NCBI GenBank assembly: GCA_037783545.1
Contig: JBBELK010000977.1
Span: 47,281 to 111,280 of the forward strand
From: Henricia sp. BOLD:AAB3569
Lineage: Eukaryota > Echinodermata > Asteroidea > Spinulosida > Echinasteridae
Length of the DNA stretch: 64,000 nt
Direction: 5' to 3'
Numbering within the stretch: position 1 is the first letter of the stretch; the number at the start of each line of letters is the position of its first letter. Positions 2,649-62,529 of the stretch are shown here, piece by piece. The notes beneath the pieces are model-generated. The model saw nothing but the letters and a program-made list of their open reading frames with translations. It was not told the DNA's origin and did not search any database. The position numbers and the translations under genes were made by a program.

Positions 2649-3231
2649 TAATGTCTCCGATATCGGTCATTGAAAACATTTCACCAACTGATTGATTGCT
2701 ACAACCTCAGAATAAAACCACGGTTGAAAGATAGGCCTATCGAAGAAATGTCATGTGCATAGACTCCATTGATCTGAGACTTGGGTTTTCGCGACCATAA
2801 CTAGAAACACGTTTCTGGCGCAACCACCAATGGCCGACGACCAAAGCTAACCATTGGTCGAGTCCACAGTTACGGCAGAAGCATGTTTCTGGTTAAGGTT
2901 GCAAACTGGCGCGAAACCAGTTCGTTCCATTACAGACGCTTCAGCTCAAAAATTCTAAGCAACATCAGACGATTTCAGTAAAGATCTACATGTAACTTCA
3001 ATGTAACAGGCACAATAATGTATGCACCACGCAATACAAAAGGCGTCACGTATATTTAACCGAATTTAACCGGCTTGGCGCCAAATGTTGACTAACTTGA
3101 TCGACCAACTCGATTAACGAATCTCTGGTGAAATGTGAACGGTTAATTCACACGCATGAGATATATTTAAACAGACACGACATCACTGTTATATACGGTA
3201 AACGATTCCAAAAAGCAACAGTTGGCATTAA

Positions 3232-3359
3232 AGGCACAGGCTCGTCAGCAATGCGCGCGTGCCAAATTCGTGCCACGAAATATGCAGCTCCATGCTTTGC
3301 TATGGAGCTGCGTATTTCGTGGCACGAATTTGGTGCGCGCGCATTGCTGACGAGCTTGT
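3232..3359. mobile_element. Palindromic TTAA MITE (AGGCACAGGCTCG), copy 1
   Basis: Near-perfect 130-bp palindrome centred on about 3298, preceded by TTAA (3228-3231). The right terminus has lost its last bases. It sits about 90 bp upstream of the CUB exon. Confidence 0.8.
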
Positions 3360-3450
3360 AATGGGCACATTAGAAATGCTTGAAAAGCAACGATATTCGA
3401 ATCCCATAATCGATTTTTCGTCTTCGCATCTCCACCCAGCTTTTGTACAG

Positions 3451-3642
3451 AAACACATAAATGGTGAATGTTGGCAGTACGTGACCCATAAGGGAGGCCG
3501 GATCGTGTCTCATGCGAGCAGCGGGCGGTATGCGGACAACACGGACTGCAAAGTGACTGTCACTGCGGACGCAGGCAGCAGGATCCGCCTCGTGTTTGAG
3601 AGCTTTGACCTGACTGAATCCATCAACTGCTACCAAGATGAG
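3451..3642 (+). CDS. CUB domain exon, first half
   Basis: Acceptor tttgtacag precedes 3451 and donor gtaggt follows 3642. It encodes 64 codons in phase 0, including the first CUB cysteine pair and the FESFDLTESINCYQDE segment typical of CUB beta-strands. A palindromic MITE (3232-3359) lies just upstream, so the long open frame starting at 3259 is mostly not coding. Confidence 0.8.
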
Positions 3643-6600
3643 GTAGGTGGGGCATACAGGCACCGTGTCAATGGGGGACTTCTGAGACACTTGGGGCCTT
3701 TTCCAAATCTCGACTTGGGCTCAGGCTCCGGCTCCATGTGAACCCTATGGAGACGGAAACGGAGACAGAGACGAAGCCGAGATTTGGAAAAGCCCCATGC
3801 AGTGGCAGCAAACATATAAAAAAAAACGTGCGCACTGTAGCACATCAAACAAGTGGACTGGTCACGTGGGACTGTAAACATGTTTGCTGCCACCAAGTGT
3901 CTCACATTCTTTAATGGTCAAAGTGACGAGTATAACGAGACCACTGACCTATTTTAATGGACCGGGTTAGGCGAATCCCTGAATGAAGCAACCTTCCGCC
4001 ATCTTGCTCCAGCAAGACAATGCCCTGCTTGGACTGGTTATACAGTCACTGTATACTTTTTTTTTTCCATTTTCCAGAAAATGGATTTCGTTCAAACCTA
4101 ACAATCATATATAAAATAATTTCCCCGAAATACTATCCATGAGAAGATAACAGGAAATTTGCAATCCCCAGTTTGGATATGGAAGCAAAAAAGTGTGTGT
4201 AATCACTGCACTCTTTATGTAATCGGATAAATTAGTTTACAAAACACCGGACGGTGGATTTCTGACGATATCCCTGGAAATATACGGACTGAGAGCGCGA
4301 AATTTCAGAATGATAATATCTGTATATTTTCAAAAACATTTTTTGGGTAAATTAATCTATAGTATCCTGTTCTATAAAGCAATGCAGTGGTTATACCAAC
4401 CATTTTGCTTAAACATCCAAATTGAAGATTGCAAATTTCCTGTTTTCTTCCCATATATAGGTGGTATTTTATATGATTGTTAACTAAGATTAGATCAAAA
4501 TCCATTTTCTGGAAAAATATGGACGCTTCTTTAAATAACCAATAAAACATGCAACGCTCCTTTGTCTTATTTAAGTGAAAGCTGGTTGACACTATAATAT
4601 GTTAGAGGGGTCCTGTACAAAATATATTAAACAAATCAGCTTATTCTACGTTTTGTGTCGATTACGAATTTTGTATGTACACATGAACAATTTTTGAACT
4701 ATATGGTTAATAGGTTATCTAAACGTTTACTTAGGTAATCGTGTACGATGGCCGGTATTTCTCCAGCCTCATGCTGAGCGGAGCCCCGTACGGTCTGTGC
4801 GGTAACGAGCTGGAACAACGCCACCGCGTGCTTGAGACTACGGGCAGTGAAATGACTCTCAGGTTTATTACGGACAACGTCAGGTCGAGGAATAAAGGGT
4901 TCACTGCAGTCTACACCACGTTCATACCGGAGGACACGAAAACAGGTAAGGCTTGGCGAATTTAGACAGATTGCAGGGTTGGAAAATGTTACTAACGGTG
5001 TTATCTTCATAAGCCAGCTCAGCACCTCATCAATACGTTCCGAGGTAACAATGAAAATTTGTGTCATGCGTTCAGGAAATTGTACGAAGCATATATAGGG
5101 CCTAGTATCGTGTGCACACGCATTTACCTACATAAATTCGTCTTCAATTATCTTTTAGTCATAAAAATGATATCTTAGGCTGAATGCATTGGACCACTTT
5201 CATCTTCATTTCAGTAAGGTGTTTTTCCCCTGGTTTTCTAGGGAAATGGTTAAAGATGTATATTGTCCGTGCGTTTTGGGTGTGGCACCTCGAAAAATAT
5301 TTTCCCCTTATCAAAGTTATTCGCTTTCAAATGAGACAAACGGGGGAAAAAATCGACCAACGTTTAGTTATCGAACATGCAATTACTGTCAATATTTCGA
5401 ATTATTGGCGGTCCGCCAATATTCAAACTCACAGTATAGGCATAGACTTGCCCAAGTCTGACTTCCCGTGTTTGGTCTGTAATGCGCAGTGTACAGCATG
5501 CCCTCTTGACTAGTGGCCTGTGTAGTCTGTTTTCTTCTTTTCGAACTATAACACGGGAAGTCAGACTTGGGTAAGTCTAGGTAAGGCGCAAGTGAGTACT
5601 GGTAAGAAATATGCAGACATCCACTACGGGGGTACACTCTAAAAACAGATTGGTACGGGGGTACACTCTAAAAACAGATTGGTTGAATTCAACCAATGTG
5701 GTTGGTAGATATGTGTCCAACCAATATATTGGTTAAAATAACCAATCATATTGGTTAAAATAACCAATCATATTGGTTAACCAATACGGATTGGTCATTT
5801 AAACCAACATAGGCCTATCTACCAACCACATTGGTTGAATTCAACCAATCTGTTTTTAGAGTGTCTGTTGTTTTTATATTTATTTCAAGTCTGAGATCGC
5901 GTATACCAATTACGGGAAGTACCTTATGCATAATTGGTACATACACGAAGTCAAACGACAGGACATACCCCGCAGTGGATGTCTGCAAATAGACTGCTGA
6001 AGTGAATACGTCACCTTTTGTTGGTTGCCTAGGCAATAATTGGCTCTAATCTAAAAATCACTGAACCGTGTCCCCGTGCTTTTCCAATAGTACGTTTGCC
6101 GACGGCCATGATAGTTTAGAGCCAATTGCCATGGCAACACGTCACACTTCAGCTGTCTATTTTCTTACCGATGTCTGAAACACAAAGTAGGCTGTTTTGT
6201 TCGTTAAAATAAAGTAAATGCTTTAAAAAAGACGTCAACTGATTGATAACATGGAAAAGTCTTTCGATAAATTAGGGTCCATTTTTTGTGTCCTCCGTTA
6301 CATCCGAAATTGTTTTAAATTTTTTTTTTAAATCCCTATTTATGGAAAGACTCAATTGATCACACGGAAAAGCAATTTTTACAAATGCATTAAATGTCAC
6401 ACTTCGTTTTCCCCGATATCCTAATTTGAAACGGTTCTCCGCAGTTGACCGCACACAGATGCAGTAATCATTGCACATAATGACTGATTACTATTCCAAA
6501 TGGACTACTCGTGCAATACAAATCATTCGTTTTGTCAAGCTCAAATTAATTTCACCTTTCCAAACTAGCGCGCAACTATAATGGGCCCGTGTCTGTATAG

Positions 6601-9600
6601 ATGCATTACATAGTCAGTCTTCCCCCAAGGAAATTATTTCCACAGCGTTATCTGTCAATTATAAACCTCGCAAGTGCATGATACATTTCTGTATTATCAA
6701 ATCTTCCCCACATGAAAATGTGCGTACACCAATAAATCTGACAAACAGTCGTCAAACAGTATGGAAGATACAACATTTTGCTCTATTCACAAAAGTGGTT
6801 GAACATTCAGAAAACTCGTGACCTATTCACAAAAATGCAGGGTATATATTCATAAAACGATTGATTGTAACAGGTTATGAGCCGTGACAACCGTAGTCAG
6901 AGGGAGGCAAACGACTAATTACTGTAATGCATGGGCTTACAGATAATTCCCGAGACTATCAAACAACGCATAGTCGCCACAAACTAATCTAGATATTGCT
7001 AGGTGTAGACACGAGATGCAGTGATATGCGCCGTGTTCGCGAAAGGCTTTTTGGGAAAAATGACAAACTTTGCCACACACGTTGTACGAAAACGTACTTT
7101 TTAGAGAGTCACTGTGGGTTCGGAGAGATAGGCTTAGAATGGACTAGCCATACAACTTTGAAATACCAAAGTGACTTTATTTAGGCTGCACGATAATTTC
7201 TACCGTGCTTTGCCGTTTTGCGTGGGCTGTGGAACACAGGGTTTTAAAATGTCTCCTCTGTGGCTTGTATTGATTTTTCGTTGTGTTCTGTGACAGCCAA
7301 GGACAGATGTTTCAACTGCGTTGACGGTTCAATGTGCATCGACAGCAGCCTGACGTGCGATTCCTTGCAAAATTGTCCAGACGGCAGCGACGAGGCCTTG
7401 CAACTCTGCTCAGGTCAGTATAGTAATAAGAATGTCCCACCTTCACTTGCTACATGTATAATTGGTCGAATTGTACACAGTAAAGGGGGACATTTTGGCA
7501 AAACTGACCATATTTTCGAGGAAATACCTTTGTTTGGTCTCAAAATAAAAGAAATAAGTTTAAGTTGTTCTGAAGAGATAACTTAGGCCCAAAAAGGGTT
7601 ACAAATAGTGTGACAACATGCCTTTAAAAAAACCCTGTGTACAACTTTCCAATATACGCTCGTAACTGGGACGGACACTTGTTACATTTTAGGCCGTCCC
7701 GGTTACGAGCGTATATAATGTAAATGTGTACACAGGGTTTTTAGAAAGGCACGTTGTCACACTGTTTGTAACCCTTTTTGGGCCTACGTTATCTCTTCAG
7801 AACAATTGAAACTTTTTTATTTCATTTTGAAACCAGACAAAGGTATTTTCTGGGAAAATATGGTCTGTGTTACCAAAATGCCTTTACTGTGGAAAGACCC
7901 ACTTACATGTATGTTTCTTCTTTTCTTAGATAGGCAAAATTATGAGGCTTGTTGTACACAATATTTCACAACACAAGATAATCAATTATGGCACTTCCAA
8001 ATCACTTTTATATGGTTAATGTTACATTTTCTTTGGTCAAGTCCTGCTGCTGTGTAAAAACACTGTTAAGGCTGCTGCTGCGGTTAATGCTGATGCTTTG
8101 GCTGCTGTGTTTAACACTTCTGTTGCTGTAGTTAACACTGCTGCTGCCACGGTTAACTTCACTGCTGATGTGGTTTACACTGCTGCTGCTGTGGTTAACA
8201 CCTCTGTTGCTGTAGTTAACACTGATGCTGCCACAGTTATCTCTGCTGCTGTAGTTAGCACTGCTGCTGTCAAGGTTAACTTCACTGCTGCTGTGGTTAA
8301 TACTGCTGCAGTTAACACACTTTTGCTGCTGCGGTTAACACACTTCTGCTGCTGCGGTTCACACACTTCTGCTGCTGCGGTTCACACACTTCTGCTGCTG
8401 CAGTTAACACTGATGCTGCCACAGTTATCTCTGCTGCTGTGGTCCATACTGCCCCTGCCGCAATTATCACTGCTGCTATGGTTAATACTGCTGCTGCTGC
8501 CGCCATGGTTAACACTTCTTCTGCTTCTGTGGTTAACACTTCTTCTGCTTCTGTAGTTAACACTGTCACTGCCGTGGTTAACACCGCTGCTGCTTTGGTT
8601 AAAACTAATGTGCTGCTGTGGTTAATACTGCTGCTGCTGCTGTGGTGAACACTACTGCTGCCGCTGTGGTGAACACTACTGCTGCCGCTGTAGTTAACAC
8701 TTCCGCAGTTAACATCATTGCTGCCATTGTTGATACTGCTATGCTACTGTGGTTAACACTTCTGTGGTTAACATCAATGCTTCTGCTGTGGTTAGCACTT
8801 CTGGTTAACATTCACTGCTGCTATGGTTAATACTGCTGCTGCTGTGGTTAACATTGCTGCTGCTATGCTTAACACTGCCACATCCACAGTTAACACTTAT
8901 GTTGCTTTAGTTAACATTGCCATTGCCAAGGTTAACATCACTGCTGCTGTAGTTAACACTGCTGCCACAGTTAGTACTATCACTGCTGCTGTGGTCAACA
9001 CCTCTGTTGCTGCAGCTGCTGCTGCTGTAATTAACACTGTCGCCATCGTGGTTAAAATCACTTCTGCCCCTGTGGTTAAAACTGCTGCTGTTTTAGTTAG
9101 CACTGCTTCTACCGCAGTTAACATCTACCGCAGTTAACATCATCGCTGCTGTTGTGATTAGTGCAGTTAACATTACTGCTGCCACTACTATGGTTAACAC
9201 TTCCGCTGCTGTGGTTAGTTAAAACTGCTGCTGCTGCTGCTGCGGATAACATTTTGGCTTAACACTGTCACTTCCGTGGTTAACATCAATACTGCTGTGG
9301 TTAATACTGCTACTGCTGCCATGGTTAACACTTCTGCTGCTGTGGCTGACACTATCCCTGGCATGCGTACATCGCTGCTGCTTTGGTCGATACTGCTGTG
9401 CCACTGTGCTCAACATCGCTGCTGCTGCTGTGGTGGTTAACACTTCTGCTGGTGTAGTTAACACTGCTGTGCTACAGCAGTTGTTAACACATTAATTATC
9501 GTGGTTATAACTGCACTATGGTTAATACTGCTGTGGTTAACACTTCTGCTGGTGTAGTTAACACGGCTGCTGCTATAGTTAGCTTCTGCTGCTTTGTTTA

Positions 9601-12177: not shown

Positions 12178-12375
12178 TAGGTTACGAGCGTATATTGGAA
12201 ATTTGTAAACAGGGTTTTTAGAAAGGCATGTTGTCACACTATTTGTAACCGTTTTTGGGCCGAAGTTATCTCTTGAGAACAAACTTATTTCTTTTATTTT
12301 GAGACCAGACAAAGGTATTTTCTGGAAAGTATGGTCTGTGTTGCCAAAACGCCCCCTTTACCGTGGCAACACTCA
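12178..12375. mobile_element. Fold-back element, right arm only
   Basis: Matches the right arm of 7477-7892 from GGTTACGAGCGTATATTGG to GCCCCCTTTACCGTGG. The left arm is absent. Confidence 0.7.
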
Positions 12376-13369
12376 AAACAAATTTGTAATTTGCATTGTA
12401 ATATTGCTATTGATTTTTAAATGAAATAAATAAAAACGTTGTCTTCTTATACAGTATTGCTGGCTTTTTGCATTTTTGAAGTCTACATTGTGACCGTCAA
12501 AGTGAAGTGTTGACAACACTGTAGCCAACACCACGGCCCAAAGACCATGGCCAACAAAAAATAAAATTCACTGGAGAATTTTTCCAAGTTATGAAAAAAA
12601 AAAATCTGGAGTTGCTGAATATTGCATAGGCCTACAATTAAAATGGAATAAGAAAACAGACAAGTACCTGGCTCTTGATGACAGTAGTGAAGAAGATCCA
12701 ACTTGTACTCTTTAAAACATCCTTTATTACCATGTCTTGGAAAGTCTGTAAAAAGGGTTGAACAGGTGTGACAGGTGTATAATTGATTGACAAAACTAGA
12801 TTAAAAATAAATTAAAGAGGTGGGGACATGCCTGAGTCACTCATTCTAAATCCATTTGAATTTCTTCCATTTTGATGCCGAAAGCACAATAAAGTATTAC
12901 TCCATCTATGTGGCTGTAATTTCTACAAGACAGTTTATCAACATTATTCAGTTAGGTAAGGCTGTTGTTCATGGAATTCATTAACCCTCGGAACAGAATA
13001 AGTACTGTTGACGTAGTGCAAATTTTAATGACTAAAAAAACCTTTCGGCCGATAGCGCTTAAACCCCAGGTATTCCTCAATCAAACCTAGTTTGAGCCTG
13101 CACAGTCACATTTACCCTGCTGGGGTTCACCCAGCAAGCACACCGATCCTGAGAAAAAGTGTGTCTCCGGGTAATCCCGAATGACTTGTGTACAAAATGT
13201 GATCACCATGCTTGCCGCCCTTGTTTGGGCTGGCAACCAATCACCTATGCCTTCTAAGTGCCTGAATGCAAACAACTGCTTTCTTTTGTGATGAAATTTG
13301 CAAATAAAAAGACGTGCATCCTAATACAGTGGCTCAGCACAGCATCTCAACTGAGGCTGCCAGTGCTAA
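12376..13369. other. Intergenic, nothing recognised
   Basis: AT-rich with short frames only. AAATAAATAAAAA at 12424 could serve as a polyadenylation signal for a plus-strand transcript. Confidence 0.4.
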
Positions 13370-13735: not shown

Positions 13736-15741
13736 TGTTTCAATAAAGTGTCTAAAACTAAATCTTGATGATACCGATGCAAGTCTAAAACGATAATAAA
13801 AACAACTTTGCAAAGGCCTAATTTCAAGCAAAATTTGTTCACCTTTTCCTCAGATTTTATGGTTGTTATATTCAAGAATAGAGCTCAATTTCGTGGCATT
13901 GTTTAGCAAAAAATGCAAAATTAGAACAGAAAAAACAAAACGGGTAAAATTTCATGTTATCCGTATAGCAATAATTTCAATGGCATCATGCATTCCAACA
14001 CTTACGAGTTCTCACCAGTAAAAGACGTAAGAAGAGCATATTGGTTACACTAATATCTGTACTTTTATCTTGCTTTTTACGTTGTGTTGAATAAGATACT
14101 TCTTTAGTCTTTCTTTGGGCTCCATTGTGAATCAAAGAGAAAACACTTGGGGTTTTACATGCTCAATTTCAAGGTGTTTTTTAACATAGGGCCTACGGTT
14201 ATTTGTAAAGAATTATTTGCAAGCGTAACCGGCCAACTGGTGACAGTTTCTTTGCAATTTTCTTTGAATTTCTTCTTCACAAAAAAAGTGTAAAGTAGTA
14301 CTTTCTGCTAAACAGTGCCATGCAATTCGGCCATGGACTACAACTTTGCTGCTTTGTAGTAAATGTCAAATTGGGCAAATTACAATTATTCGAATAACCA
14401 TGGTAATCACACAAAGCAAAAACCTTTATTTCCCCACAAAATAAAATCTGTAAGCACAAGCGACATCTTACTCAAACTGTAAGGGCCAAAGTTCATTCTA
14501 TCTTCCATAATTTCTTATTTACCCCAGCCCTTGCGCACCATTTTCTTGTCAAATTCACATGAAGTTGTCAACAAATAATATGTAGGCTAATTTTTTTTAA
14601 AAATAAAACACCAAAAATAAAGTTTAATAAAACACGAAAAATAAAGTCTAATAAAAAAAATTGTATCATACTGTCATTTTTCATGTTAAAAATACAGCTA
14701 ATATTTACAAAAGTTCAACAGTTCAACTGTATGATCGTGCACAACGTACTATACATTACCCTGCCCTGGGCAGAAGGTTGACATAAATGGGTCACAACGT
14801 TCATTTTGTGACCTAGACGAGTCGTCAGCTGCACCTGCTTAAATCGCAAGAAACTCGACTTCGCGTGTCTTGCGTCTGATAATTCCACCCTAGCTTGAAA
14901 CAGGGCGGAGGACGAGTACATTGACATCTGCAAATTGAGAGAAGAAAAATGGTCACAATACCACTGCACAATGTATACAAGTTATGGCTGAAAAAAAAAA
15001 TAGGTGCAAGAAATAAAATTGATACGTAGTTCTCATCAAAAAGTGGTAAAAAATATAAAATGTGAATAGTAGCTCAATGTTTTGATCAGAGGGAAAAAAG
15101 TAAAAAAATGAAGTGAGATTTATTTTGTATCTTTATCAAAATGAAAAATATGCAATATTCTTTGCCTTATGGTGCCTTTCTTAGAGAAATGAACAAAAAT
15201 CGCACTTGAAAGCATCATACTGCTTGTGTGCAATTTTCAGAAGTACACATTTGAGGCAAATATAGCCCAACTTCAGAAAATTTAGACTTCAGAGTTGTTG
15301 ATCATTTGATAACACAAGCAGATCAAAGAACTAAAGCCATACACGTAGGGAATACAGTAAATTATATCACATTAATCTCTCTGCATGGACAGGTAGCCAA
15401 CGACAAAGAAATTAGTCGCCAGGCACTTAAAAAAAACGTAAAGAAAATCTTAAAAAGTAACTATTTTATGGCCGACCCACTCCTTTTGGTTTTAATACCT
15501 TCGCATTATCTCCACATCCGGCAATAGAGACATGGGACCTGTGTTTAAGACAAAAAAATCCATCGTTAAGAACAATAAAAACAAATTGGTTTTGAGAATC
15601 GAAAAACAGAAAACATTTTAACTCAATATATCAACTACATCTATTTTAATGCAATAATCCTTGTCATGTTATCCTACTATCTTAAAGCCGTTTACTTAAT
15701 GGAACAATAACAGTGCCAATATAATATACACACCGGTTTAA
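13736..15741. other. Intergenic, nothing recognised
   Basis: AT-rich, with direct duplication of an AAAATAAAGTYTAATAAAA motif at 14600-14660. No coding signal. Confidence 0.4.
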
Positions 15742-16561
15742 AGGGACACACCGGCTTACTGTTTACATAATGTAGCAATCTAGCATCCTCGACAATAATT
15801 TTTCAATGGTCATTGTGAAAAATAATTATCAAAATGTCACGTAATTAACTAGAAATGTTTAAAATTAACAAAAAAGACAAATGTTGGGCTATACGCTTTA
15901 CCAGCCATCGCGATGTATTATGTATCATGTGTTTGTAAAAAAAAGTGGCGTTCGATATGGGTCAACACATGTTTAACCTCGATTCCTTGTTTTCCCTGAC
16001 TCATCACACCTTGCATGATCCCTCAGGTCAGCGCTGATTCGAGGAAGCAACTCGAACGCAACGTTTTGGTGTCTGTAGCGCCCTCAATAGGCCTATGCTG
16101 TTTATTCCTTCGGATATTATTTATTGCCGCGAACGCGAAGCGAAGACACGAAAATCTAAGATATTCTCTCGTCCTTATCAACACCCAGAAACCCTTCTTA
16201 TGAAATCTGTTGGCAGATTTGTGTACAAATTGGAAAATATGGTAGGCCTATGTACATAGCGTTCGTATTATTTTCCAACAAGAAGAGAAACCAACCGCGA
16301 ATGACAAAAGCAACTCGCACTTCGCGCTGGTTTCTACAGCTGGAAATACAACTAATGTAACTCACAAGACCACGTGACTTTTCGGAACCAGAATCTGGTT
16401 CCGAAAAGTCATGTAACCATGGTTTTTTGAAAAATTTAAAAAAACTGCCAAATTTGACGGCGTCTTTTCAGGATATATCTAATTTACTCTGGAAAGCGCT
16501 TCAGAATAATGTATGGGTCTATTTCGAGCCTAAAATAGCCCAACAAAGCCGGTGTGTCCCT
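15742..16561. mobile_element. TTAA MITE, AGGGACACACCGGC family, copy 1
   Basis: 820 bp with terminal repeats AGGGACACACCGGCTT / AAGCCGGTGTGTCCCT and TTAA on both sides. Contains an internal hairpin at 16366-16417 with arms CACGTGACTTTTCGGAACC and GGTTCCGAAAAGTCATGT. Confidence 0.88.
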
Positions 16562-17264
16562 TTAAGGAAGTTAATACTAAAGAAAGATTACATGTAATCT
16601 GGAACAAGTACGCAATGTGAAACTCTCTGAATAGTTAAAGATACATTCTGTCTAGACATTCGTGGATTTTTTGTACCTCAAATTAACGTCTTGATTTGGT
16701 TCAATAAAATCAGCATAAATTTAACTAAAATGTTAAAATACATGACTCAAGCTGCAAATACAATGAACCAGAAATTGCCCTTACACCAAAGTTGGTGGTG
16801 TTTTGTTTTCTGAAAATTTTTCAATATCAAGCAGAATATATCTTTAAAAATAACGTTTAGAGCCCTTTCATTTTCCTCTTGGATAAAAAATTAAACACTG
16901 CCAAACCTTGCAGTTTTTACATTTTTAAATATGTTCCAAAGAATTAACATATACTCAACAAAAAGGAAACGCACATCTGCTGTCATCCGCCTATTTCAAT
17001 TCAATTTGGCAAACCCAACAAGGTCACAATCCCCAAAAAAATTGGTGCAGATGAAATTAACCATACTTCACATGAATGGTGTAAAATTTTGCTGCTCCGC
17101 CGTGGTGGATAATATGCAAAATATTGGCAGTTGCAAAAATGTGCATTTCTTTTTTGTTGAGGATATCATCATCTAAACTGATCCGGATAGCAGACATAAG
17201 TAACATCATATAATGCAAACATATTTGAAAATAAATCTGAATCATATAATTGAAAGTGTTACTA
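16562..17264. other. Intergenic, nothing recognised
   Basis: AT-rich sequence between two MITEs. Short frames only. Confidence 0.4.
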
Positions 17265-19251: not shown

Positions 19252-19324
19252 TGGCACCACCAAGATTCGAACCGCAGACCTTCTGCTTAAAGTGCAGATG
19301 CCCTACCAATTGAGCTACAAAGCC
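19252..19324 (-). pseudogene. tRNA-Lys(UUU)-like sequence, probably degenerate
   Basis: The 73-nt length is exactly that of a tRNA. It has D arm TAGCTCAATTGGTAGGGC, a 5-bp anticodon stem TCTGC/GCAGA with loop ACTTTAA (anticodon TTT), and T loop TTCGAAT. The T stem has two mismatches and two wobbles, and the acceptor has a T-T mismatch, so it looks like a tRNA pseudogene or the head of a tRNA-derived SINE rather than a working tRNA. Confidence 0.5.
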
Positions 19325-19554: not shown

Positions 19555-37925
<18,371 letters not shown>

Positions 37926-44143: not shown

Positions 44144-44205
44144 TTAACTATTTAGTTATTGCTTTTGGGTAAAAACAAACGATTGTACCGGTAGTGTATT
44201 TATGT

Positions 44206-45052: not shown

Positions 45053-45251
45053 CACAGCACCCAGAGCATTCTACGCTTGATGTGCATGTGAAACCAGGCC
45101 ATCGTGGCGTTACACAGCTAAACTTAACATTCGGTAGTGGTTGCTTGATGTGAACAGCATGCTTTTCGTTTGATCTTCGTTAACCCCAAATCCCTAGGGT
45201 GTATGCAAAATCGTATTGATTTTGGAGGATTGAGGAGTGTGGGGTTAAAGG

Positions 45252-46445: not shown

Positions 46446-46451
46446 GGTTAA

Positions 46452-46985
46452 AGGCCCTGTAGATGATCTGTTTTTGAGCGATTCTGCGAATAAAACCATT
46501 ATAAATCAAAAGAAATTTACATCAACAAACTCATCCGAAGAAATTTCAGCTTTGTCAAATGTACCACGTTTAAAAAAAAACATGAAAATCCATATATGCA
46601 TTTTCCTGGTCTTGGCGGGGTGTTTCAAATATTAATTCTCAGTTGATCGGGTATACTATGTGGCTTGCGTCATGCACTCTGTGGCGCACATCATATACTG
46701 CGTGTGCGCGCGATCCATAAAAATGCATCGCGTTGGAACACGCACACGCAGTACACAGCGCCCATGCATTTTGGACTGCGTAGATGCAAACCAAAAATAA
46801 GTAAATTGTTTGCAAACGATCTAAATAATTTCATCTTTACGGATTATTTTCTGGTAAAATTATATCATTTTGAGCGGAAACCTTTCATTGGGTAGTTGCT
46901 ATTAATTCAATCTTTACTTTCAGAACATTTCCCTGTAAACTCGTCGATTACTTTTTGGGGTCATTGCAAATGATACACTGGGCCT
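46452..46985. mobile_element. TTAA MITE, AGGCCCTGTRGATG family, copy 1
   Basis: 534 bp between TTAA at 46448-46451 and 46986-46989, ends AGGCCCTGTAGATGATCTG and CACTGGGCCT. Its left boundary carries the target duplication of the 45252-46445 element. Confidence 0.85.
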
Positions 46986-48655: not shown

Positions 48656-51583
48656 CTACAGTGGATTAACAAGTATTTAAATATAAGCAATTCATCAAAC
48701 ACAAAGTATAATGCCACTGACAATCACAAATCGAGTCACAAATTGCGTCACATCGAAACAAAATATTCGAATAATGATTATTTCGTATTTGAATATTTTA
48801 AAAGGTTGATGAGTGATGAGTTGTTATTTAAGGTTTGTTTTGCCCGTACCCGACGTAATTAATAACACTGTATACTCAGTGCTTTCCTGTATATAGCGTG
48901 CTCGGGTGAGACTCGAACCCACGACCTCCTGCAAACAAGGCAGACGTCTCAACCACTTGTTCCGTAAATTGGGAGAAAAGGAACCACTTGACAGCGCCCT
49001 CACGCGATCAGGAATACGGCCTATACAGATTAATGCATAGTGCTCAGTAGAAACACTGCATGACCTCACCTCCTTTGTGACGTTTGAATTGGTTTACATT
49101 GAAGGACTGTTGCCTGAATGTTAGCAGTATCTACGGCAGGGCTGGAACTAATGCTAACCGGTCGCTGGGGTAAGCTTGCAGCTAGCTGGGTAGGACGTAT
49201 GACAGGAACATGTTTCTCTCCGTCTGAATAAAAGCTCTGATGGTACAAATGTAGACATAATTATTGGCATAATTATTTTCACAAACATAAGTGGACTACA
49301 GTGATCGATACAACAGACGCAATAATTACGTCAATTCATTTTGTGGCAGTCCAGCAGAAAACCATTTGGGTTCTCCACGTCAACACAAGAACGGCGGTCG
49401 GAATGTCAAGGGCTTTTTTCGGGAATAGGCCAAAAAAGCTCGAATTTCATGACAGCATTGGCCTTCACCTTTGCTGCAATGCCCTTGGGCCAATTTCATA
49501 GAGCTGCTTAAGCATGAAAAATTGCTTAAGCATGAAAAACCTTGCTTGATAAAATGAGGTTCCCACTAAAAATTTCATGCGATTGTCATGGAAATGAAAC
49601 AGTCCTCTAACACTGGTAATACACTATTTCTATCACATGAGGATTTAACTGGTAACGTTCTCTACTAAGCAAGTGTTTTTTGTGCTTAAGCACATTTTTG
49701 TGCTTAAACACCTCTATGAAATTGGGCCCTAGTAATCTTTGGGGCTGGCAAATTTTGGATGAGCTGCAGCAGGACAAATGCGGGACAGTAAAGAAATTGA
49801 AGGGGTAGGGAGCATGTCATCCCGCAAAAGATCCTTCATAAAGAGCCCCGAAAATTGACTACTAAAGATGGTTTTGACATGGATAGGGTTGGGATTATCA
49901 AAGAAACTGGTAAATTGCAATGATTTTTATTTCTAAAATATATGTCAGAAATATCTAAACCCTTTATATGGTTTACGGTAGATATGGTTAGTAAAAAAAG
50001 TCACAAGTCTACCAGGGGTTTTATCACTAGTCACAAAGTATTCAGACCAACAAAAGACATTAATTCATTTAAAGGGCCCCTAAAATGGTGTTTTTATCAA
50101 TGAAATCTGTGCTATGGAACTAGCCCATTAATTTACAATCATAAAAACCCTACTTGAAAGTTGTTTGGGGGGTTAAAATCAAGGTTTTTGATTTTTATGC
50201 TAATGAAAATTTACATATGCATGAGCAAAGTGGTGATGTCACTTTAGGAAAACACAGGAAAATCTCATTCAACTGTTCACAAAAGTTTCCACAATTTTCT
50301 CCAACTTGTGTAACCCATGATGGTTTAGGTTTGTTTTACATGTTGCCTGTTGCAAACCATGAAAAAAACTAAGGCTGGAAACTGCAGCATTTTTGCACAA
50401 TTCCAGTTTAAAGTCTTATGTTTTTTCTTTGCTTTTCTGCTTTGTGTTCCTAAAGTGACATGCCCCAAACAGCGCCCTCCGTCTGTAAGTTTATGTGAAG
50501 AAATTTTCAAAGTTGAAAAATGCCACTTTTTATTCATGGGGCATCAAAATGAACAGTAGTATTGTCTTTCTACACAAGTAATCCTTCATATGCAGCAGAA
50601 ACTGTGCATTTTAGGGGCCCTTTAACCGACTTGTGGCTAAGACCCATATACACTCGACAACAAAATTCTGTCACCAGTAAGACATTTATAGATATTTATT
50701 ATTAAATTGGATTTAATGTAGGAAAATAATATATCAAATTTTAGCTGAACATATCACTCAAAGGAATAGAGCTCAAGAGAGATCATGATGGCAAGCTTCA
50801 CTGAACAGGAATGCAACAAAGGAGTGTGGGGTCAGAATGAAAAACACCAAAGAACAATGCAACTTGTGATTTGGGCAATTTGTGTGTAGACAATTAGGAA
50901 ATTTTTAAGTGAGTTTGGATTTATCAATGTCTTGTCAAAAACATCCAAATCAAAATGGTTAAATTGTCCAATCTGAATCGTGCCATTGCATTAGGTATGG
51001 TGGAAGCAAAATACTGAACTGTAACTCCCCTTGCTTGAGTGCAATAAAGTTGACATCGTTGTTTTTTTGTGTTTTTATTCTGACCCAACACTCGTTTGTT
51101 GCATTCCTGTTCCGTGAAGCTTGCCATCATAGACTCCGTTGAGCTCTATTCCTTTGAGTGACATGTTCAGCTAAAATTTGATATATTATTTTCCTACATT
51201 AAATCCAATTTCATAATAAATATCTACAAATGTCTTACTGGTGACAGAACGTTTTTGGTCGAGTGTACTTGTGAGGAGTGCAAGGCTTTGTAGTTGCTTT
51301 TACAGGGCACATAATAATGGTATAATAAACCTTAGCATCCTACCTTAAATCCATTGGTGTGATATCTGCTGAGATGTTGGCCAACCTCTTGCACCTGGGC
51401 GGAGAGTTTTCGGAAAGTGTCCTGCATTTAACAAAATGGATAAGGGCTGTCTATTTAAGTACACAGGCACAAGGGGAGGACTACTACCACACTACTCATT
51501 GCTACGTACAAAACGGAACATTCTCCGGATAGCCGGAACAAATTGCAGCATGCTTACCTGCGTGATTTTGTAGAGTGTGACAT
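47344..51583 (-). CDS. Unrecognised protein with Cys cluster and RPxSA motifs, 3' part of gene
   Basis: Four exons join in phase on the minus strand: 51583-51558 (26 nt), 51421-51344 (78 nt), 49236-49070 (167 nt) and 48655-47344 (1312 nt with stop), about 527 residues in all. I do not recognise the protein. Visible features: a predicted helical N-terminal part (DTFRKLSAQVQEVGQHLSRY), Pro/Ser-rich linkers, a conserved-looking block YCYFDLLELSLLKEDWRNAV with a following Leu/Glu helix, a cysteine cluster (CSSECLQPLCVGNC and CPRCSQEYCKGSC, about nine Cys), and a basic C-terminus with repeated KSA/QSA/VSA motifs (RPKSA, RPVSA, RVKSA). Such basic motif-rich tails occur in cytoskeletal and ciliary proteins, which is only a guess here. 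The 5' exons were not identified; they should lie above 51.6 kb or beyond the window. Confidence 0.72.
48880..49000 (-). repeat. tRNA-derived SINE-like segment
   Basis: The minus strand reads A-box-like AGTGGTTGAGACGTCTGCC, then a perfect-loop T arm GTGGGTTCGAGTCTCAC with B box GGTTCGAGTC. No matching 5' acceptor strand exists, so it is tRNA-derived rather than a tRNA gene. It sits in the intron between the last two exons of the unrecognised gene. Confidence 0.5.
49070..49236 (-). CDS. Exon of unrecognised gene (Pro/Ser-rich)
   Basis: 167 nt encoding SFYSDGEKHVPVIRPTQLA onward to PIQTSQR. It ends in phase 2 at a gtgagg donor, completing an Arg codon with the first base of the terminal exon. 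Confidence 0.72.
49487..49729. mobile_element. MITE with GGGCCAATTTCATAGAG ends
   Basis: 243 bp; inverted GGGCCAATTTCATAGAG / CTCTATGAAATTGGGCCC and internal TGCTTAAGCA hairpins. Intron of the unrecognised gene. Confidence 0.78.
50073..50621. mobile_element. TTAA MITE, AGGGCCCCTAAAATGG family, copy 1
   Basis: 549 bp, ends AGGGCCCCTAAAATGG and TTTTAGGGGCCCT, TTAA at 50069-50072 and 50622-50625. It lies in the intron between exons 51344-51421 and 49070-49236 of the unrecognised gene. Confidence 0.86.
50651..51265. mobile_element. Tc1/mariner-like element without transposase
   Basis: 615 bp with terminal repeats of about 190 bp starting CACTCGACAACAAAATTCTG, flanked by TA on both sides. The middle carries only short frames. 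It lies in an intron of the unrecognised gene. Confidence 0.75.
51344..51421 (-). CDS. Exon of unrecognised gene (helical segment)
   Basis: 78 nt, 26 codons in phase 0 on both sides, from DTFRKLSAQVQ to HTNGFK. The acceptor is taaatgcag and the donor gtagga. Confidence 0.65.
51558..51583 (-). CDS. 26-nt microexon of unrecognised gene
   Basis: A strong polypyrimidine acceptor (ttttctctgacttacag) and a gtaagc donor bracket 26 nt that read VTLYKITQ into the next exon in phase. The call rests on splice-site quality and frame only. Confidence 0.55.
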
Positions 51584-52690
51584 CTGTAAGTCAGAGAAAA
51601 CAAAAAACAGTCATCAAAACTATTGTTGATCTAAAGGTTATATCTCGAATCACACAGAGCCTTTTCAAGCGTTTATGTATACATACAATTGATGCGTGTT
51701 GCATGCTGTGAGAAAACTTAGCACAGAGAGAATTTAGAGGGAAATAAATGACGGACTGAAAACAGAATCAACTTGGGTAACATTTGTTTTTGTGGTGCCA
51801 ATTTCTCTTCGCGAAATGTTTTCTCTCTAAGTGCGTCAAATTTACACATGCTAACAGTGAAAATGTGCAGTGCGAATTCAGTTGTAAGGCACTTGCCATG
51901 TTGTGCACAATGCAGCTGAATAAATTGCACAAATGCAGAACTGCTTAGGGAGAAGGTTGTTGGGTAGAATTTCTTTGTTTTTCTTTACACAATAGACGAA
52001 TCCCAAATTAGCTCGTTCTGCGCACTTCCACATTGAAACCGAGGGTCCCCGTGTCAAGTCGGCAGTACACATGCGCTACAGGTAAATACGTGCTGTTCCT
52101 CGTAACGTGTAGGACTTTTTGTGCCTTCACGTGCGTACATTAGTTCACTTGCGGGTTTAATACATTACGAGAAATTTGTGAACTGCCCGTGTGAAATGAG
52201 GGCGCTGTATACGTTTTGCGCACGTGACGTATTTTTTAACATGTAACTAAGGCCAAAGTGCACTTGCGCTTTGCACGCGCTACATAATGCACGATCAGTG
52301 CTGCATTACTGTATACGTAGTTAGAGTAGAGTAGGTTTGTCATGCCAATGTACACTGTACAAGTTCACTTAACAAGATTTGTTTTCGTTGAATATACCCC
52401 CTTTATTGAAACTATTTGCACATTTGCTAAGGCTAGCCATTTTCTCGGCAGAAAGCCCTATAGTCCGGCATATTGTACGCTTACATGTGCCTTTTGTGTC
52501 ACAAATCATTGCACAAATGGGGTGATTTTCACATCATGTACAGTATTTTCGTCTAAAATTAGTACTTTCGTTCTGTTCGTTGGTGTGCACATCATGACGT
52601 ATTTTTTTCAATATTTGACATTGACATTTGTAACCCGGCTGTGCGTGTCAAACATATCCAAATGTAAATAAAGTACATTGCCTAAAGCAC
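51584..52690. other. Upstream of known exons of the unrecognised gene
   Basis: Expected to hold further exons or its promoter; none could be identified from splice signals and frame. Confidence 0.4.
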
Positions 52691-52717
52691 AGGAAGCGAC
52701 ACTTAAGAATGGGTGTC

Positions 52718-52828
52718 GTGGGGGGGAGGGGGGGGGGGGGGGATGGGGGGGGAGGATTGGGGGGGGGGGGGGGGGGGGGGGTGGGGGGGTGGGGGGGTGG
52801 GGGGGGGGGGGGGGGTGGGGGGGTGGAG
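52718..52828 (+). repeat. Guanine tract of about 110 bases
   Basis: Almost pure G with scattered T and A. It can form G-quadruplexes on the plus strand. The Gly-rich open frames over it are artefacts. Assembly length is unreliable here. Confidence 0.9.
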
Positions 52829-53261
52829 GTTTATAGGGTTTATCATACCATTGCTATCAACACTTTTAGTCGGATTTTACTTGTCAACTCGTGAAGGAAA
52901 ATTTTGGGTAACTGCAAATGATGTATTAATAAATAAAACAAATAATTTCTGAAAGCTAATTGTGGTGTTGATAATGAAAAGTAATTTTCATTGTGAGCGT
53001 CCCCCAATTATTAAATAATTCAGTGCATATAGACAATTATTGCTGCGTACCGCCAGCTGTGAAATGCGCGTTGCCTTTGTTTAGTCTTCGTTACACTCAA
53101 TTTGACACGGTGATTATAGTCAAACAACACAATGCCGGGACGCCTCACATTATATCTTGATGAGACAGATTATGCTATAGTTGACTGGGCAACTCTTAAT
53201 ATCTGTATGCACTGAATTATTTAATAATTGGGGGACGCTCAATGAAAATTAATTTTCATTA

Positions 53262-53577
53262 GGCCAAACAAAATAAATGGTGCGTTTACGGTAACGGCTT
53301 AAAAAAAATCCAGGTAGGTAGGTAGGAAAATAATTTTATTTTGTCATTTTCTTTTTACATTTCAGTTCATGCATTTGCGTGTTGTTTTGCAATATTTGAA
53401 ACTCACTATTAACACTATTAACAGCTTCAAGTGTAGAAAATGTTATGTTCGTTTGAAATTATTGCAAAAATTGCTCATTAAAAATTATCAACTTGAAAAT
53501 TGGCAATAAAAGGTTTTGGCCTCACCAATTCTAGGTCGGTCGGGTTACCGTAAACACACCGTTTATTTTGTTTGGCC
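53262..53577. mobile_element. Harbinger-like MITE with TTA duplication
   Basis: 316 bp with ends GGCCAAACAAAATAAATGG and its approximate complement, flanked by TTA on both sides (53259-53261, 53578-53580). The flanks rejoin to TTTTCATTATCAACACC, matching uninterrupted copies (reverse strand) near 52971 and 55130. Confidence 0.8.
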
Positions 53578-53756
53578 TTATCAACACCGCAATCAGCTTT
53601 CAGAAATTATTTGTTTTATTTATTAAAGCACAATACAACAGTTGCAGTTACCCAAAATTTTCCTTCACGAGTTGACAAGTAAAATCCGACTAAAAGCGTT
53701 GATAGCAATGGTATGATAAATCCCATATACCTCGCCTCCCCGATCACCATTCTTAA

Positions 53757-54200
53757 AGTTGCATTGCCCGTGTTTCGGTGAAAGGATTAAAAAAATTAAT
53801 TTACACAAGCGAACAGAATTTAGAAAGTTTTACGTGTCTCTGTAACGAAAAATATCAAAAACTTAAATTTCCGACGTCGGGAATTGGAGATACAAGCCTT
53901 TTTCTTGAAACGTGCTTCACATGTTGTACATGTGCCCGTACGCTCATATGTACATAGTATGTGTACAATGTACACATGTACGCACACATGTACATTTACG
54001 TCATAACCCTGTCGATTAAATGACCTGCCAGCCATTTAATCATTTCTTGTTTTTAATCGACTGGCATTAATCCTTGACGGATTTTTACGTTCGTGGTACC
54101 AAATGAAAGCTGATAACTTTTTCTATTCTAGAAAAATACCTATTTAACTTTTAAAAAAAAATTGTACGCCCAAATCGGCCCAAACACGGGCAGTGCAACT
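53757..54200. mobile_element. TTAA MITE, AGTTGCAYTGCCCGTG family
   Basis: 444 bp with ends AGTTGCATTGCCCGTGTTT / AAACACGGGCAGTGCAACT and TTAA on both sides. The flanks rejoin to GCGACACTTAAGAATG, a sequence present uninterrupted at about 52697, 54948 and 56140. Confidence 0.9.
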
Positions 54201-54229
54201 TTAAGTGTCGCATCCTGTGCGTTTGGGAG

Positions 54230-54965
54230 GGGGTAACGCTTAAAGTACATGTACCCCCCAAAAGTGACTTTTAATTAGAGTTTCGCACACAGACACCATT
54301 CTAGCAGGAATACATAGTATTCGTTGAGCTGATCAATAATCAGTAACTTAAGAACGACATATTCCGTGCTTAAAGGTACACACCGGCCTACTGTTTACAT
54401 GATTTAGTGATACGGCAGGCTACGGTGGAGTGTAGGATGTTTGCCCAGCGCAGCACGGCAAATAGATGCTCTGGTGTACATTCGTGAAAAAAAAAACATG
54501 ATGCTAACTCCTCCAAAGAAAACGGAAATTCCTTTTCGGTCGTCCGGGCTGTCCAGTGAAATCGTGAGCAGAAAATTTTAGATATCCCGAGTAGGAGAAG
54601 AGCGCATCTTTTGTGACTATATAAGTCGTGAGGCTTGAGTGTAGTTGCAACGGCTGGTAAAGCGTATAACCCGCCTTTTGACTGTTTTTGTTAATTTTAC
54701 ACTTCTTTAGTAAATTACGGGATATTTTGATGATCTTTTTTTACAACGACCATTAAAAAGGTATCTCAATGCTGCTACATCACTAAATCATGTAAACAGT
54801 AGGCCGGTGTGTACCTTTTAAGCACGGAATGCACGGGATATATGTCATTCTTAAGTTACTGATTATTGATCAGCTCAACGAATACTATGTATTCTGCTTG
54901 AATGGTGTCTGTGGGTACTTTGAGCGGTACCCCCTCCTAAACGCACGGGATGCGACACTTAAGAA
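54230..54965. repeat. Palindromic host repeat split by a TTAA MITE
   Basis: The left arm 54230-54373 (AGTCACTTTT reversed, ACACCATTC, ATACATAGTATTCGTTGAGC, GATCAATAATCAGTAACTTA) is repeated inverted at 54818-54965; a third copy of the arm lies at 55975-56155. Confidence 0.72.
54374..54817. mobile_element. TTAA MITE, AGGTACACACCGGCC subfamily
   Basis: 444 bp, terminal repeats AGGTACACACCGGCCTACTG and its complement, flanked by TTAA. The interior is reduced compared with the 800-bp copies. It sits at the dyad centre of a palindromic host repeat (54230-54965). Confidence 0.83.
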
Positions 54966-55365
54966 TGGGTGTCGTGGAGGGGTGGGGGGGTTTATATGGA
55001 GTTTATCATACCATTGCAACACTTTTAGTCGGATTTTACTTGTCAATTCGTGAAGTAAAATTTTGGTTTACTGTAACTGTTGTATTGGGGCTTTAATAAA
55101 TAAAACAACTAATTTCTGAAAGCTAATTGCGGTGTTGATAATGAAAAGTAATTTTCATTGTGAGTGTCCCCAATTATTTAATAATTCAGTGCATATAGAC
55201 AATTATCGCTGCGTACCGCCACCTGTGAAATGCGCGTTGCCTTTGTTTAGTCTTCGTTACACTCAATTGGACACGGTGATTATACTCCAACAACACAATG
55301 CCGGGACGCCTCACATTATCTTGATGAGACAGATTATGCTATAGTTGCCTGGGCAACTCTTAATA
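54966..55365. repeat. Second arm of the 52.7-kb host repeat
   Basis: Starts GGGTGTCGTGGAGGGGTGGG and follows 52845-53215 closely, without the Harbinger-like insertion, so it serves as an empty-site reference. Confidence 0.75.
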
Positions 55366-55430
55366 TGACAAAATAATATTCAAAGTCATTGAAACAGCAA
55401 AAACAATTTTTTAAATGCTCACGTTCCAAA

Positions 55431-55842
55431 ACATGTTGATACATGTATATAACGCTATGTTGATACATGTATATAACGCTATGTTGATACATGTATAACG
55501 CTATGTTGATACATGTATAACGCTATGTTGATACATGTATAATGCTATGTTGATACATGTACAACGCTATGTTGATACATGTACAACGCTATGTTGATAC
55601 ATGTACAACGCTATGTTGATACATGTACAACACTATGTTGATACATGTACAACGCTATGTTGATACATGTACAACGCTATGTTGATACATGTACAACGCT
55701 ATGTTGATACATGTACAACGCTATGTTGATACATGTACAACGCTATGTTGATACATGTATAACGCTATGTTGATACATGTATAACGCTATGTTGATACAT
55801 GTATAACGCTATGTTGATACATGTACATCGCTGTTGTATAAC
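55431..55842 (+). repeat. 22-bp satellite GCTATGTTGATACATGTACAAC
   Basis: About 18 head-to-tail copies of a unit containing TTGATACATGTA. Outer units read TATAAC and central ones TACAAC, so homogenisation is strongest in the middle. Confidence 0.92.
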
Positions 55843-56585
55843 GCTATATATAGAATAACGCTATACACAATTTATGCATGGCGCGCACGGTACTCACACA
55901 ATGCATATACATACACATGTATATTCTGAAGGATTTTGCGCATGCACAAACCGTAACACCGCCCTTCGAGTCGTTCTTAAGCACGGAATGCACGGGATAT
56001 GTCATTCTTAAATTACTGATTGTTGATCAGCTCAACGAATACTATGTATTCCTGCTAGAGTGGTGTCTGTGCGCGAAACTCTAATTAAAAGTCACTTTTG
56101 GGGGTACTTTGAGCGGTCCCCCCGCCCAAACGCATGGGATGCGACACTTAAGAATGACCGTTCTGAAGGTTAGACACCCCCACCTAGCCACCGACACCAT
56201 CAAACCTTTTGTGCGTAAAACTCTAATTAAATCGTCACAGGCTCTCAGACTAAAGGGGATTAAACTATTTGTAATGGTTTACCAATCATGTGTTCTATCT
56301 TTTAGCAACAGAAGTGCACAGATCGGTCTCAAATTGGTTAATTTGGGATTCATCTACATGTATACAGTTCTGCTTTTGTAGAAAAGTTACTTTTTGTAAT
56401 CAAAATTTTAGGGACAATAAATGATTTTGCCCAACATACCAGTTTTGTCATTTTCTTGGAAATTCGTCCAAGTCTGCCACTTGTATGTTGCCTAGGAAAC
56501 CAAAACAAAATCTGTCATTAACATTGTATGAAATCGCTATGACAAATAAGATTTTAACCATCGGTCCTCCCAAAACTATCTTTAA

Positions 56586-59783: not shown

Positions 59784-60668
59784 GCACTAAGTCTATGGAG
59801 TAAGACTACGGGATACATAGGGTCATTCCATGTCAATTCAACGAGCTTTTAGACCTGACCCTCACAGATTGAAATGAAATTTGGTGTGCTGATTGGACTC
59901 CTTGAGAAACCCCGAGAACTGAAATTTTATATCATTTGGTCAATTAATGTTTGAGATACGGGTCAACGAACTTTGACTAATTAGCATGACCTGCTATGTT
60001 TGGACATGCAGTTATATCTCTAAAAGTAATGGACTTAGAGAGATAAACTTTACATCATTTTAAAGCTCTTGAAATGGCCTTTATTTTATAAGTTATGTAA
60101 ATTTATAACCTTTGCAAAAATTTGTATTTGTCAAAATGCGTAATTTTTTTTATTTGTTAGCTTAAGATGTAAGGAACATTTCCTGAAAGATTTGGGATCC
60201 TAGGCACTCTTACAGTTTTTGAGTTATGATAATTTTAACATTGGCTAACATGTAAATAACATGTAACTATATATGTTATCACCCATAGGTAGAAGCGTGA
60301 TTTAGCAATATGGTCATGCAGCAACTTTAACAGGCAGACATTAAAACATGGCTAGCGATAACCCGCTGCCCAATCCTCACCAAACTTTGTCTGATAGTTC
60401 TTGAGAACATCACCGGTACCTTGCATGTGTCTATGGATTTTTGGCAGAATTTGTCAATTTAATTGTCGAAAATCCAAAGTTTAGGCCTATAACAGTAGTA
60501 CTATAAGTCAATGACAACAGTATGTCATGCAAAAAAGTGCATGTTGCAACTGCTAGCTGCTGTTGTTTGACAAATTTTGCCAAAAATCCATAGACCCATG
60601 CAAGGTAAGCTTAGGTTCTCAAGAACTATCAGACAAAGTTTAGTGGGGATTGGGCAGCAGGTTATTTC

Positions 60669-60932
60669 ACTTGTGTTACATTTTAGGCCGTCCCGGTTAC
60701 GAGCGTATATTGGAAATTTGTACACAGGGTTTTTAGAAAGGCACGTTGTCACACTATTTGTAACCATTTTGGGGCCTACGTTATCTCTTTAGAAAAACTG
60801 AAACTTATTTCTTTTATTTTGAGACCAATAGCCGATTTCAATTCCTGCAATTTTTCGTGAAATCGGCTGCTGACAAAGGTATTTTATGGAACCGTGTTGC
60901 CAAAATTCCCCCTTTACCGTGGAAAGACTCAA
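60669..60932. mobile_element. Fold-back element, right arm with 50-bp insertion
   Basis: Starts TGTGTTACATTTTAGGCCGT and runs to CCCCCTTTACCGTGGAAAG. A small hairpin segment with AGCCGATTTC / GAAATCGGCT (60830-60869) interrupts the copy. Confidence 0.7.
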
Positions 60933-61227
60933 TTCATACCAAGAGTTTGTCGGGGAGAATAAACTAAGAGTTTAAAACTAAGAGAATAAACTTAGACAGA
61001 AAGCATTTTTGTGATTTTGATGCGCATCAAATTTGAATCCACCTTCGTATATACTCTACACCTTTGCCACTAATTCTTCCTAATACGACATGATATTATA
61101 ATGCCCTAGAAAGGGTAAATTTGGTTAGGAAACATGATTTTAGCAATAAGAAAGGGTATTTTTTTCGTATACATTGAACAAAGATTTTAAGGAAATTACC
61201 TCCTGGAATCAACACATAATGTCATTT

Positions 61228-61486
61228 TAAGATATACTTCCCACTTGCACTTTTGTCGCAAATGTTGCTTTTCTGTAGAAAAATCACGTTTTCTTCCTCA
61301 AAAATTACCTTCAGTTAGTGCACAAGATAACCATTCACGCGCGCGTGCAGCGCCCTCTGTTGTCGCGCTTACGCACAGACCGCTCGCCACGTCATTTTGT
61401 GCATTACTTTATGCAGTAATTTTATCATTTATTTATCTCAGAAATGCAACATTTGCGACGGAAGTGTCAGTGGGAAGTATATCTTA
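61228..61486. mobile_element. MITE with TAAGATATACTTCCCACT ends
   Basis: 259 bp with inverted TAAGATATACTTCCCACT ends, then GTCGCAAATGTTGC / GCAACATTTGCGAC. A decayed relative lies at 36566-36830. Confidence 0.75.
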
Positions 61487-61901
61487 GAATTGAATAAGCT
61501 ATCGATTCCAACATATAAATTTACCCAAATCCGTGTTCAATGTATATGAAAAAATACCAAAGAAAATATCAAGTTTTTCTTTGAAAACTCCATAGACTTA
61601 TAGTGCATGGAGTCTCAACTGGTAAACGTGCAAGTTAGTTTTTCCTCCGCTTTTCACTTGCAAACAGCAAGCAGTGAAGCACAGACTATTGAATTAAAAT
61701 TACCCAGAAAATCCCTGCTTTTCGTGTCTGTTGGAAGCTGGTGCTGGCCAACTCTGACTGTATACAGTGGTGAGAAGGTTCATTCTGAGCAATGGTACAT
61801 CATCAGGCCTTCATACATGTATCACTCCATGTTTGTGTACATGTCCACAGTCCACCACTACACACCTAGTGTGAAAAGAGGAACAGCATGTTTATATTTA
61901 A

Positions 61902-62417
61902 AGATACTGTACTAGTATTATACATGATTGGTAAACTGTTACAAATAGTTTTATGCCCCTGTGTGATTGAAGATATATGCATGATTAAAACCAACCTGAG
62001 CAAAAACCAGCTCCGTACTTCGTCTAACTTTTGAGAAAACAGTCAAAAAAGGGTTTGCAGTCATTTCGCCCCAAAACCACTTCGCCCTGAACCATTTTGC
62101 CCTGAACCAAGGCCTGTGCACTAAGTGGTTTTGGGGCGAAGTAGCATTTGGGCGATGTAGTGTTTGGACGAAGTGATTTGGGGCTAAGTGGTTTTGGGGC
62201 GAAATGGCACTTGGGCGAAATGGTTTTGGGGCGAATTTAATTTTCGTCTCACGAGACGAAAACTAATTGTTTTACTCATTTCTCAAAGACTATAGCACTT
62301 TAGACAAAAAAATTCAGGGGAAGTTTTCTACTGTCATCATGTTTATATTGTGTATAAAGTTAGGCGTAAATCTGTGAACATTTCTGATTTTCGAGATACC
62401 AATCATGTATACTGCCT
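61902..62417. mobile_element. TTAA MITE with TTCGCCCC sub-repeats, copy 3
   Basis: 516 bp, same orientation as copy 2, flanked by TTAA at 61898-61901 and 62418-62421. Confidence 0.84.
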
Positions 62418-62529
62418 TTAAATATAAAAATTCAGAAGTTGACCATGTACAATATTTGCCTTATGCACCTTTTAATTGTTTCGCCACTCTCCCCCACCCC
62501 CCACCCCCACCCCCGGGCTGCCCCACTCT

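Follow-up and report, generated by a model that had tools for sequence, protein, structure and literature searches.

Which transposase moves the short TTAA-flanked elements that crowd a 64-kb stretch of Henricia sp. DNA (hereafter the window; contig C977:47281-111280, in a genome of 740,731,340 bases)? The original prediction had distinguished six families in this stretch, here called A to F, and had proposed a possible unusual branch of piggyBac as their source of mobility. We do not favour such a branch: TTAA duplications next to AG ends are the published signature of Kolobok, this genome contains a Kolobok with TTAA and AG at its ends, and neither the window nor 200 kb of contig C1, an independent sample of the same genome, showed a TTAA pair ending in CC[CT]T. 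A to F are very probably miniature non-autonomous members of the Kolobok superfamily, resembling the T2 miniature inverted-repeat transposable elements (T2-MITEs) of Xenopus, and not an odd piggyBac branch.

All six families were recovered with the predicted copy numbers (A, 4; B, 3; C, 2; D, 2; E, 3; F, 1). The 15 copies cover 6,729 bases, or 10.5% of the window, and are short: 124-132 bp for A (one copy truncated), 442-820 for B, 512-534 for C, 549-618 for D, 490-517 for E and 444 for F. The TTAA target and the leading AG, which the original prediction noted for most of the ends, are common to all six families, with AG at the left end of every copy. In a mechanical count, exact TTAA was found on both sides of 11 of the 15 copies and at 26 of the 30 ends; the right TTAA of the truncated copy A4 is not a terminus, and with A4 left out and the diverged copy B3 included, the properly bounded copies still number 11. 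None of the copies has a long frame (the longest inside any copy is 123 codons), and in line with the predicted lack of a transposase in the window, C977 had no match among the listed hits of four genome-wide protein searches, with only five window frames run through Pfam. CUB and FAM217 matches mark the window as animal DNA.

The TTAA-flanked families are confirmed to be real, above chance and common in the genome. In a search for inverted-end pairs whose outer flanks were required to differ, TTAA gave 14 pairs in the window, versus 0 to 5 for the 15 other palindromic tetramers and a mean of 1.10 (maximum 4) in 60 second-order Markov sequences. AG starts were found in 9 of the 14 pairs, versus a simulated mean of 0.08 and a maximum of 1. 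Without the edge rule the test does not discriminate (23 AATT pairs in the window, 17 TTAA pairs), because many inner pairs occur in long palindromes. Enrichment of the motif TTAAAGG is weaker evidence: its 28 occurrences in the window are about twice the 11-14 expected under Markov models, but one of 100 simulated first-order sequences had 30, the highest count among them. Edges of homology between copies coincide with TTAA even if TTAA is not assumed, for example in B1 and B2 (15738-16565 versus 43338-44147).

In the 200 kb of C1, families A, C, E and F occur again at full length, nearly all bounded by TTAA on both sides, B recurs as a 669-bp copy with both ends, and D through its ends. Over the window and this sample, TTAA adjoins 58 of the 68 mapped ends (A, 25/28; B, 7/9; C, 8/8; D, 4/5; E, 10/14; F, 4/4). 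Three of the ten exceptions (window positions 54816, 61913 and 26274) are alignment overhangs with TTAA visible by eye; the remaining seven reflect mutation, decay or fragmentation of the end. De novo detection in the sample gave 35 TTAA pairs, of which 20 start with AG (several being cross-pairings between A copies), 14 with TT, one with GC and none with CC. Four more AG families were found there, with ends AGGAGCTTGTTCAGAT, AGGAACGTGACCAGAG, AGCGGGCCTCCCACTG (2,400 bp) and AGGGGCTATGTCACGG (1,607 bp); the AGGAGCTTGTTCAGAT family has decayed relatives in the window.

Genome-wide amplification was seen for both families whose ends were counted across the genome. Exact matches to TTAA plus the end numbered 13,181 for A (6,547 + 6,634) and 2,519 for F (1,243 + 1,276), and reversed-pattern controls gave 0. 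Mean pairwise divergence was 0.034 for C (4 copies), 0.033 for F (2), 0.057 for E (6), 0.064 for D (2), 0.086 for A (12 copies, two of them identical neighbours) and 0.215 for B (4, the diverged B3 included). A scan of a viral contig collection with exact patterns for the A, B, C and E ends returned one match only, a stretch of 57% GC with just 22 bases in common with the window, which was taken as chance; the exact B-end pattern had no match in one scan of a collection of bacterial genome contigs.

Empty sites reveal the target duplication itself in two families. Other copies of the repeat that hosts F1 (54915-55041, 81.7%; 52681-52729, 81.6%) span the site with a single TTAA. In the 200-kb sample, one copy of C is embedded in a high-copy repeat, one empty paralog of which aligns over 117 columns with no gap and reads TTTAAA at the site; other empty paralogs show TTTTAG or TTTAGA. 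Of 34 joined flanks, these two gave clean results, and the rest had no usable spanning paralog. The check for precise single-TTAA sites suggested in the original prediction succeeded for a copy of F and a copy of C, with one TTAA or a one-base variant in the spanning paralogs. Together with the bounded copies and ends counted above, this establishes a TTAA-specific 4-bp duplication, as known from Kolobok and likewise from piggyBac. Elements in the 200 kb also abut on one TTAA (F beside A, and A beside the 1,607-bp element), which shows that a TTAA duplicated by one family can be used again by another.

A TTAA target by itself is no proof of piggyBac, and it is the first bases of an element that separate Kolobok from piggyBac. 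Kolobok elements are described as having TTAA duplications and 5'-RR ends, unlike piggyBac (PMC9587614), for which CC[CT]T is given as the hallmark end (PMC2872659). Xenopus T2-MITEs combine TTAA with AGGRR, and the ten full-length Xenopus Koloboks presented with them are all AG-ended, including the non-AGG ends AGCG, AGTG and AGAG (PMC6004289). All six families in the window start with AG and thus have 5'-RR termini. The usual CC start of piggyBac, already reported missing in the original prediction, was indeed absent, with CC[CT]T on 0 of the 30 printed A-F ends; the four CC pairs in the window and the 200 kb are three CCAA and one CCCC. The ends were also said to share little beyond TTAA and AG, and this holds: the best likeness past AG/AGG was 14 of 20 positions, between C and E, which random AGG-start 20-mers equalled in 16% of 5,000 trials (P = 0.16), and a subterminal motif common to the families was accordingly rejected.

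Koloboks of the Kol0 type are present in this genome. The Kol0 group is described as encoding a transposase together with KolX, a protein resembling the C-terminal domain of P2X7 (PMC9587614). A profile search found five PF20700 matches genome-wide, a PF20700-positive exon used as query gave 82 matches (the query included, many diverged), and the KolX-like P2RX7_C domain gave 58. Of these 58, 15 have a transposase match no more than 7 kb away, versus 0.09 expected, and all 15 are convergent with it; judged by scores and spacing, the 15 pairs are not all independent (near-identical sets on C195, C258 and one on C62, on C254 and C478, and on C192 and C388). For the remaining 43, no transposase match lies that close, and host genes resembling P2X7 may be among them. 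We read PF20700 proteins of this kind as probable Koloboks; this is supported by their pairing with KolX and by an open frame of 623 codons at locus L036 with the motif order D-D-DxxH-E, in which GDG, TTDRH, DVWH and GNLEVYH were assigned by eye. No enclosing TTAA/AG end pair was found within 8 kb of the transposase/KolX pair at L036, which is either an immobile or domesticated copy or has its ends outside the 8 kb.

An element on C195 does have such ends. It measures 10,470 bp, carries TTAA-AGAGCTGCTTTAAC at both ends with 14-bp perfect terminal inverted repeats (TIRs), and contains transposase exons and a KolX match. Its copy on C62 is 99.2% identical over 9,731 columns, with the right side diverging one base past TTAA; toward its left side the C62 copy holds roughly 0.7 kb of additional DNA, and the stretch analysed stops short of that copy's left end. 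Separately, a PF20700 match with an in-frame TAG recurs in each of three tandem units, spaced about 4.5 kb, at L030-L033 (C871:237806-250585). Such tandem PF20700 multimers recall KolobokP.

One family can be tied at one end to transposase fragments. A repeat on C210 and C24 (two copies read, main blocks 94-98% identical) contains pieces of Kolobok transposase, GDGRNDSPGHSAQYLTYTFMD among them. Each of the two copies breaks off exactly at TTAA-AGGCAGTATACATCATTGGTA, the family E end, the DNA beyond being different, and the last 141 bp of the repeat are 77% like family E. We infer that A to F are moved by Kolobok transposases, which is best supported for E because its end is common to the repeat that holds the transposase fragments. 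A Kolobok DDE transposase, supplied from elsewhere in the genome, would recognize the inverted ends of A to F, cut the element out and insert it at TTAA, with duplication of the four bases. A stretch of 50 bp on C921, 1.1 kb from the PF20700 query exon, resembles the C end (76%); this locus is at most a candidate for an autonomous C element, as a search of 9.5 kb did not turn up a second end and the transposase looks intron-split.

Several findings weigh against assigning A to F to Kolobok. Longer copies with the same ends and encoding a DDD/DDE protein, proposed as a check in the original prediction, turned up only as the single E end on the C210/C24 repeat; no complete transposase-coding element with A-F ends was found, and for A, B, D and F no parent element was seen. 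Even the C210/C24 repeat is no clean parent of E, because it lacks TTAA/AG at its left boundary and holds a second E-like end about 970 bp inside. AGGRR, as in the T2-MITEs, fits only B among the six families (AGGGA in B1 and B2; AGGTA in B3), the other starts being AGGCA in A, AGGCC in C, AGGGC in D, AGGCA or AGATA in E and AGTTG in F; it fits three of the four families added from C1. The superfamily rule given for Repbase calls for likeness over positions 1-11 with one mismatch allowed (PMC4455052), and the best comparison of our ends with 12 Xenopus ends over 11 bases had four mismatches. Open piggyBac frames, moreover, far outnumber the open Kolobok frames seen. One piggyBac copy showed no clear terminus in 380 bp upstream.

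A to F might accordingly be moved by the piggyBac transposases of this genome, as a branch that uses AG-ended elements. The TTAA duplication fits this, and the transposases are abundant and look recent: among 422 candidates, 116 were scored as PF13843 matches, 105 of these 116 without inner stop and many with near-equal scores. TTAA cutters of both kinds may thus be available, and what speaks for Kolobok is just the AG ends together with the link to E. CC[CT]T is, however, missing from the A-F ends and from the TTAA pairs, and an AG-ended Kolobok exists in the same genome, which makes piggyBac the less likely mover and, in our estimate, an unlikely one. On C1249, C153 and C296, open PF13843 frames with near-equal scores follow one another at intervals of about 8-8.5 kb or more, apparently a recent expansion.

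Sola3 is also TTAA-specific, and it or another TTAA-targeting superfamily could move some families, for example F, whose AGTT ends depart from AGG. As F keeps AG and Xenopus Koloboks too include non-AGG ends, we regard this as very improbable. Least credible of all is that the true duplication is TA (Tc1/mariner-like) or TWA (Harbinger-like), with TTAA an artefact of element bases. TTAA being palindromic, TA followed by an A-start end would look the same at any single site; the outer T and A are, however, kept across independent insertions (58/68 ends), and the empty sites of F1 and of the C copy hold one TTAA or a one-base variant.

Three known systems come closest to A to F. Xenopus T2-MITEs are alike in TTAA target, AG(G) ends, many coexisting short subfamilies and an internal repeat segment in one of them (Xmix/Xstir), as in family E here; they belong to another genome, their AGGRR is broken by five of our six families, and the comparison of sequences covers the terminal 11 bases. 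Kol0 Koloboks (Kolobok-1_XT type, transposase plus KolX) share TTAA duplication and AG ends and are represented here by the convergent transposase/KolX element of about 10 kb, whereas A to F are non-coding and have other TIRs, with only E tied to a repeat with transposase fragments. The coral CMITEs, which are piggyBac MITEs, are likewise short, with TTAA duplication and several TIR families, but as described (PMC2872659) keep CC[CT]T at their ends where A to F start with AG. As far as could be seen, A to F are new families of a known kind; our literature search found no description of them, in sources covered in part, and we do not claim that they are absent from print.

A 740-Mb animal genome is thereby added, with Kolobok-like MITEs filling about a tenth of the window; as a transposase/KolX element lies elsewhere in this genome, which transposase moves which MITE is directly testable in it. 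Transposases of both the Kolobok and the piggyBac group occur there. A bolder idea, to which we assign a rather low probability, is that in this lineage a single Kolobok transposase, or a small number of them, accepts nearly any TIR that follows TTAA-AG and would cross-mobilize at least 10 unrelated short families that even reuse each other's duplicated TTAA. If true, the cross-mobilized set would include a near-perfect hairpin of about 130 bp (A) with more than 13,000 exact ends.

The individual copies lie on the plus strand except where stated. Family A comprises the hairpin MITE A1 (3232-3355; left TTAA 3228-3231, right terminus decayed to TTGT), A2 (33342-33473; TTAA left, TTGA right), A3 (41159-41290; TTAA on both sides) and the right-truncated A4 (41431-41527; left TTAA 41427-41430). 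B1 (15742-16561) has TTAA-AGGGACACACCGGC at both ends, B2 (43342-44143) has TTAA on both sides, and the diverged B3 (54374-54816) is flanked by CCGTGC-TTAA and TTAA-GCACGG, its right side counting as TTTT because of one extra base ahead of the TTAA. TTAA is also present on both sides of C1 (46452-46985), C2 (56586-57097), D1 (50073-50621), E1 (26266-26755, minus strand, with TTCGCCCC repeats inside), E2 (33608-34124), E3 (61902-62417; right TTAA 62418-62421) and F1 (53757-54200, with the paralogous empty sites given above), while D2 (29090-29707, minus strand) has TTAA left and CTAA right. A seventh, decayed TTAA/AGGAG family, H, absent from the original prediction, is found at about 4070-4516, 27544-27862 and 42684-43013 (H3, minus strand), and 16639-16843 is a weak additional TTAA candidate.

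Three other candidates were rejected. V (54205-54958, TTAA-GTGTCGC) is not a family, as its TTAA, into which F1 inserted, belongs to a larger repeat. G (45252-46445) has a 9-bp duplication, GGTTAAAGG (45243-45251 and 46446-46454), and is inserted at the left junction of C1; with its 190-bp inverted ends (98%) it is Mutator-like in form, and its inner stretch resembles tRNA-derived repeats. The 61-bp TTAA-CCCC pair at 45184-45244 is a decayed repeat whose other copy does not have those ends.

Other repeats were noticed in the window. A free-standing 16-bp tandem array, CTTCGCCCCATTACCA, at 63282-63481, 0.9 kb from E3, is about 75% like the TTCGCCC repeats of family E and recalls the MITE-derived Xstir repeats of Xenopus. 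F1 and B3 are inserted in a nest of long inverted repeats (52600-56230) that also holds a G-rich run (52720-52823) and an 18-copy 22-bp minisatellite (55433-55832). A four-copy repeat family (7476-7891, 12180-12377, 29972-30218 and 60668-60930) has long inverted arms and no TTAA at its printed edges. Finally, a tRNA match on the minus strand at 19252-19324 (Rfam, 39.1 bits), not reported by ARAGORN, is perhaps a tRNA-derived short interspersed element.

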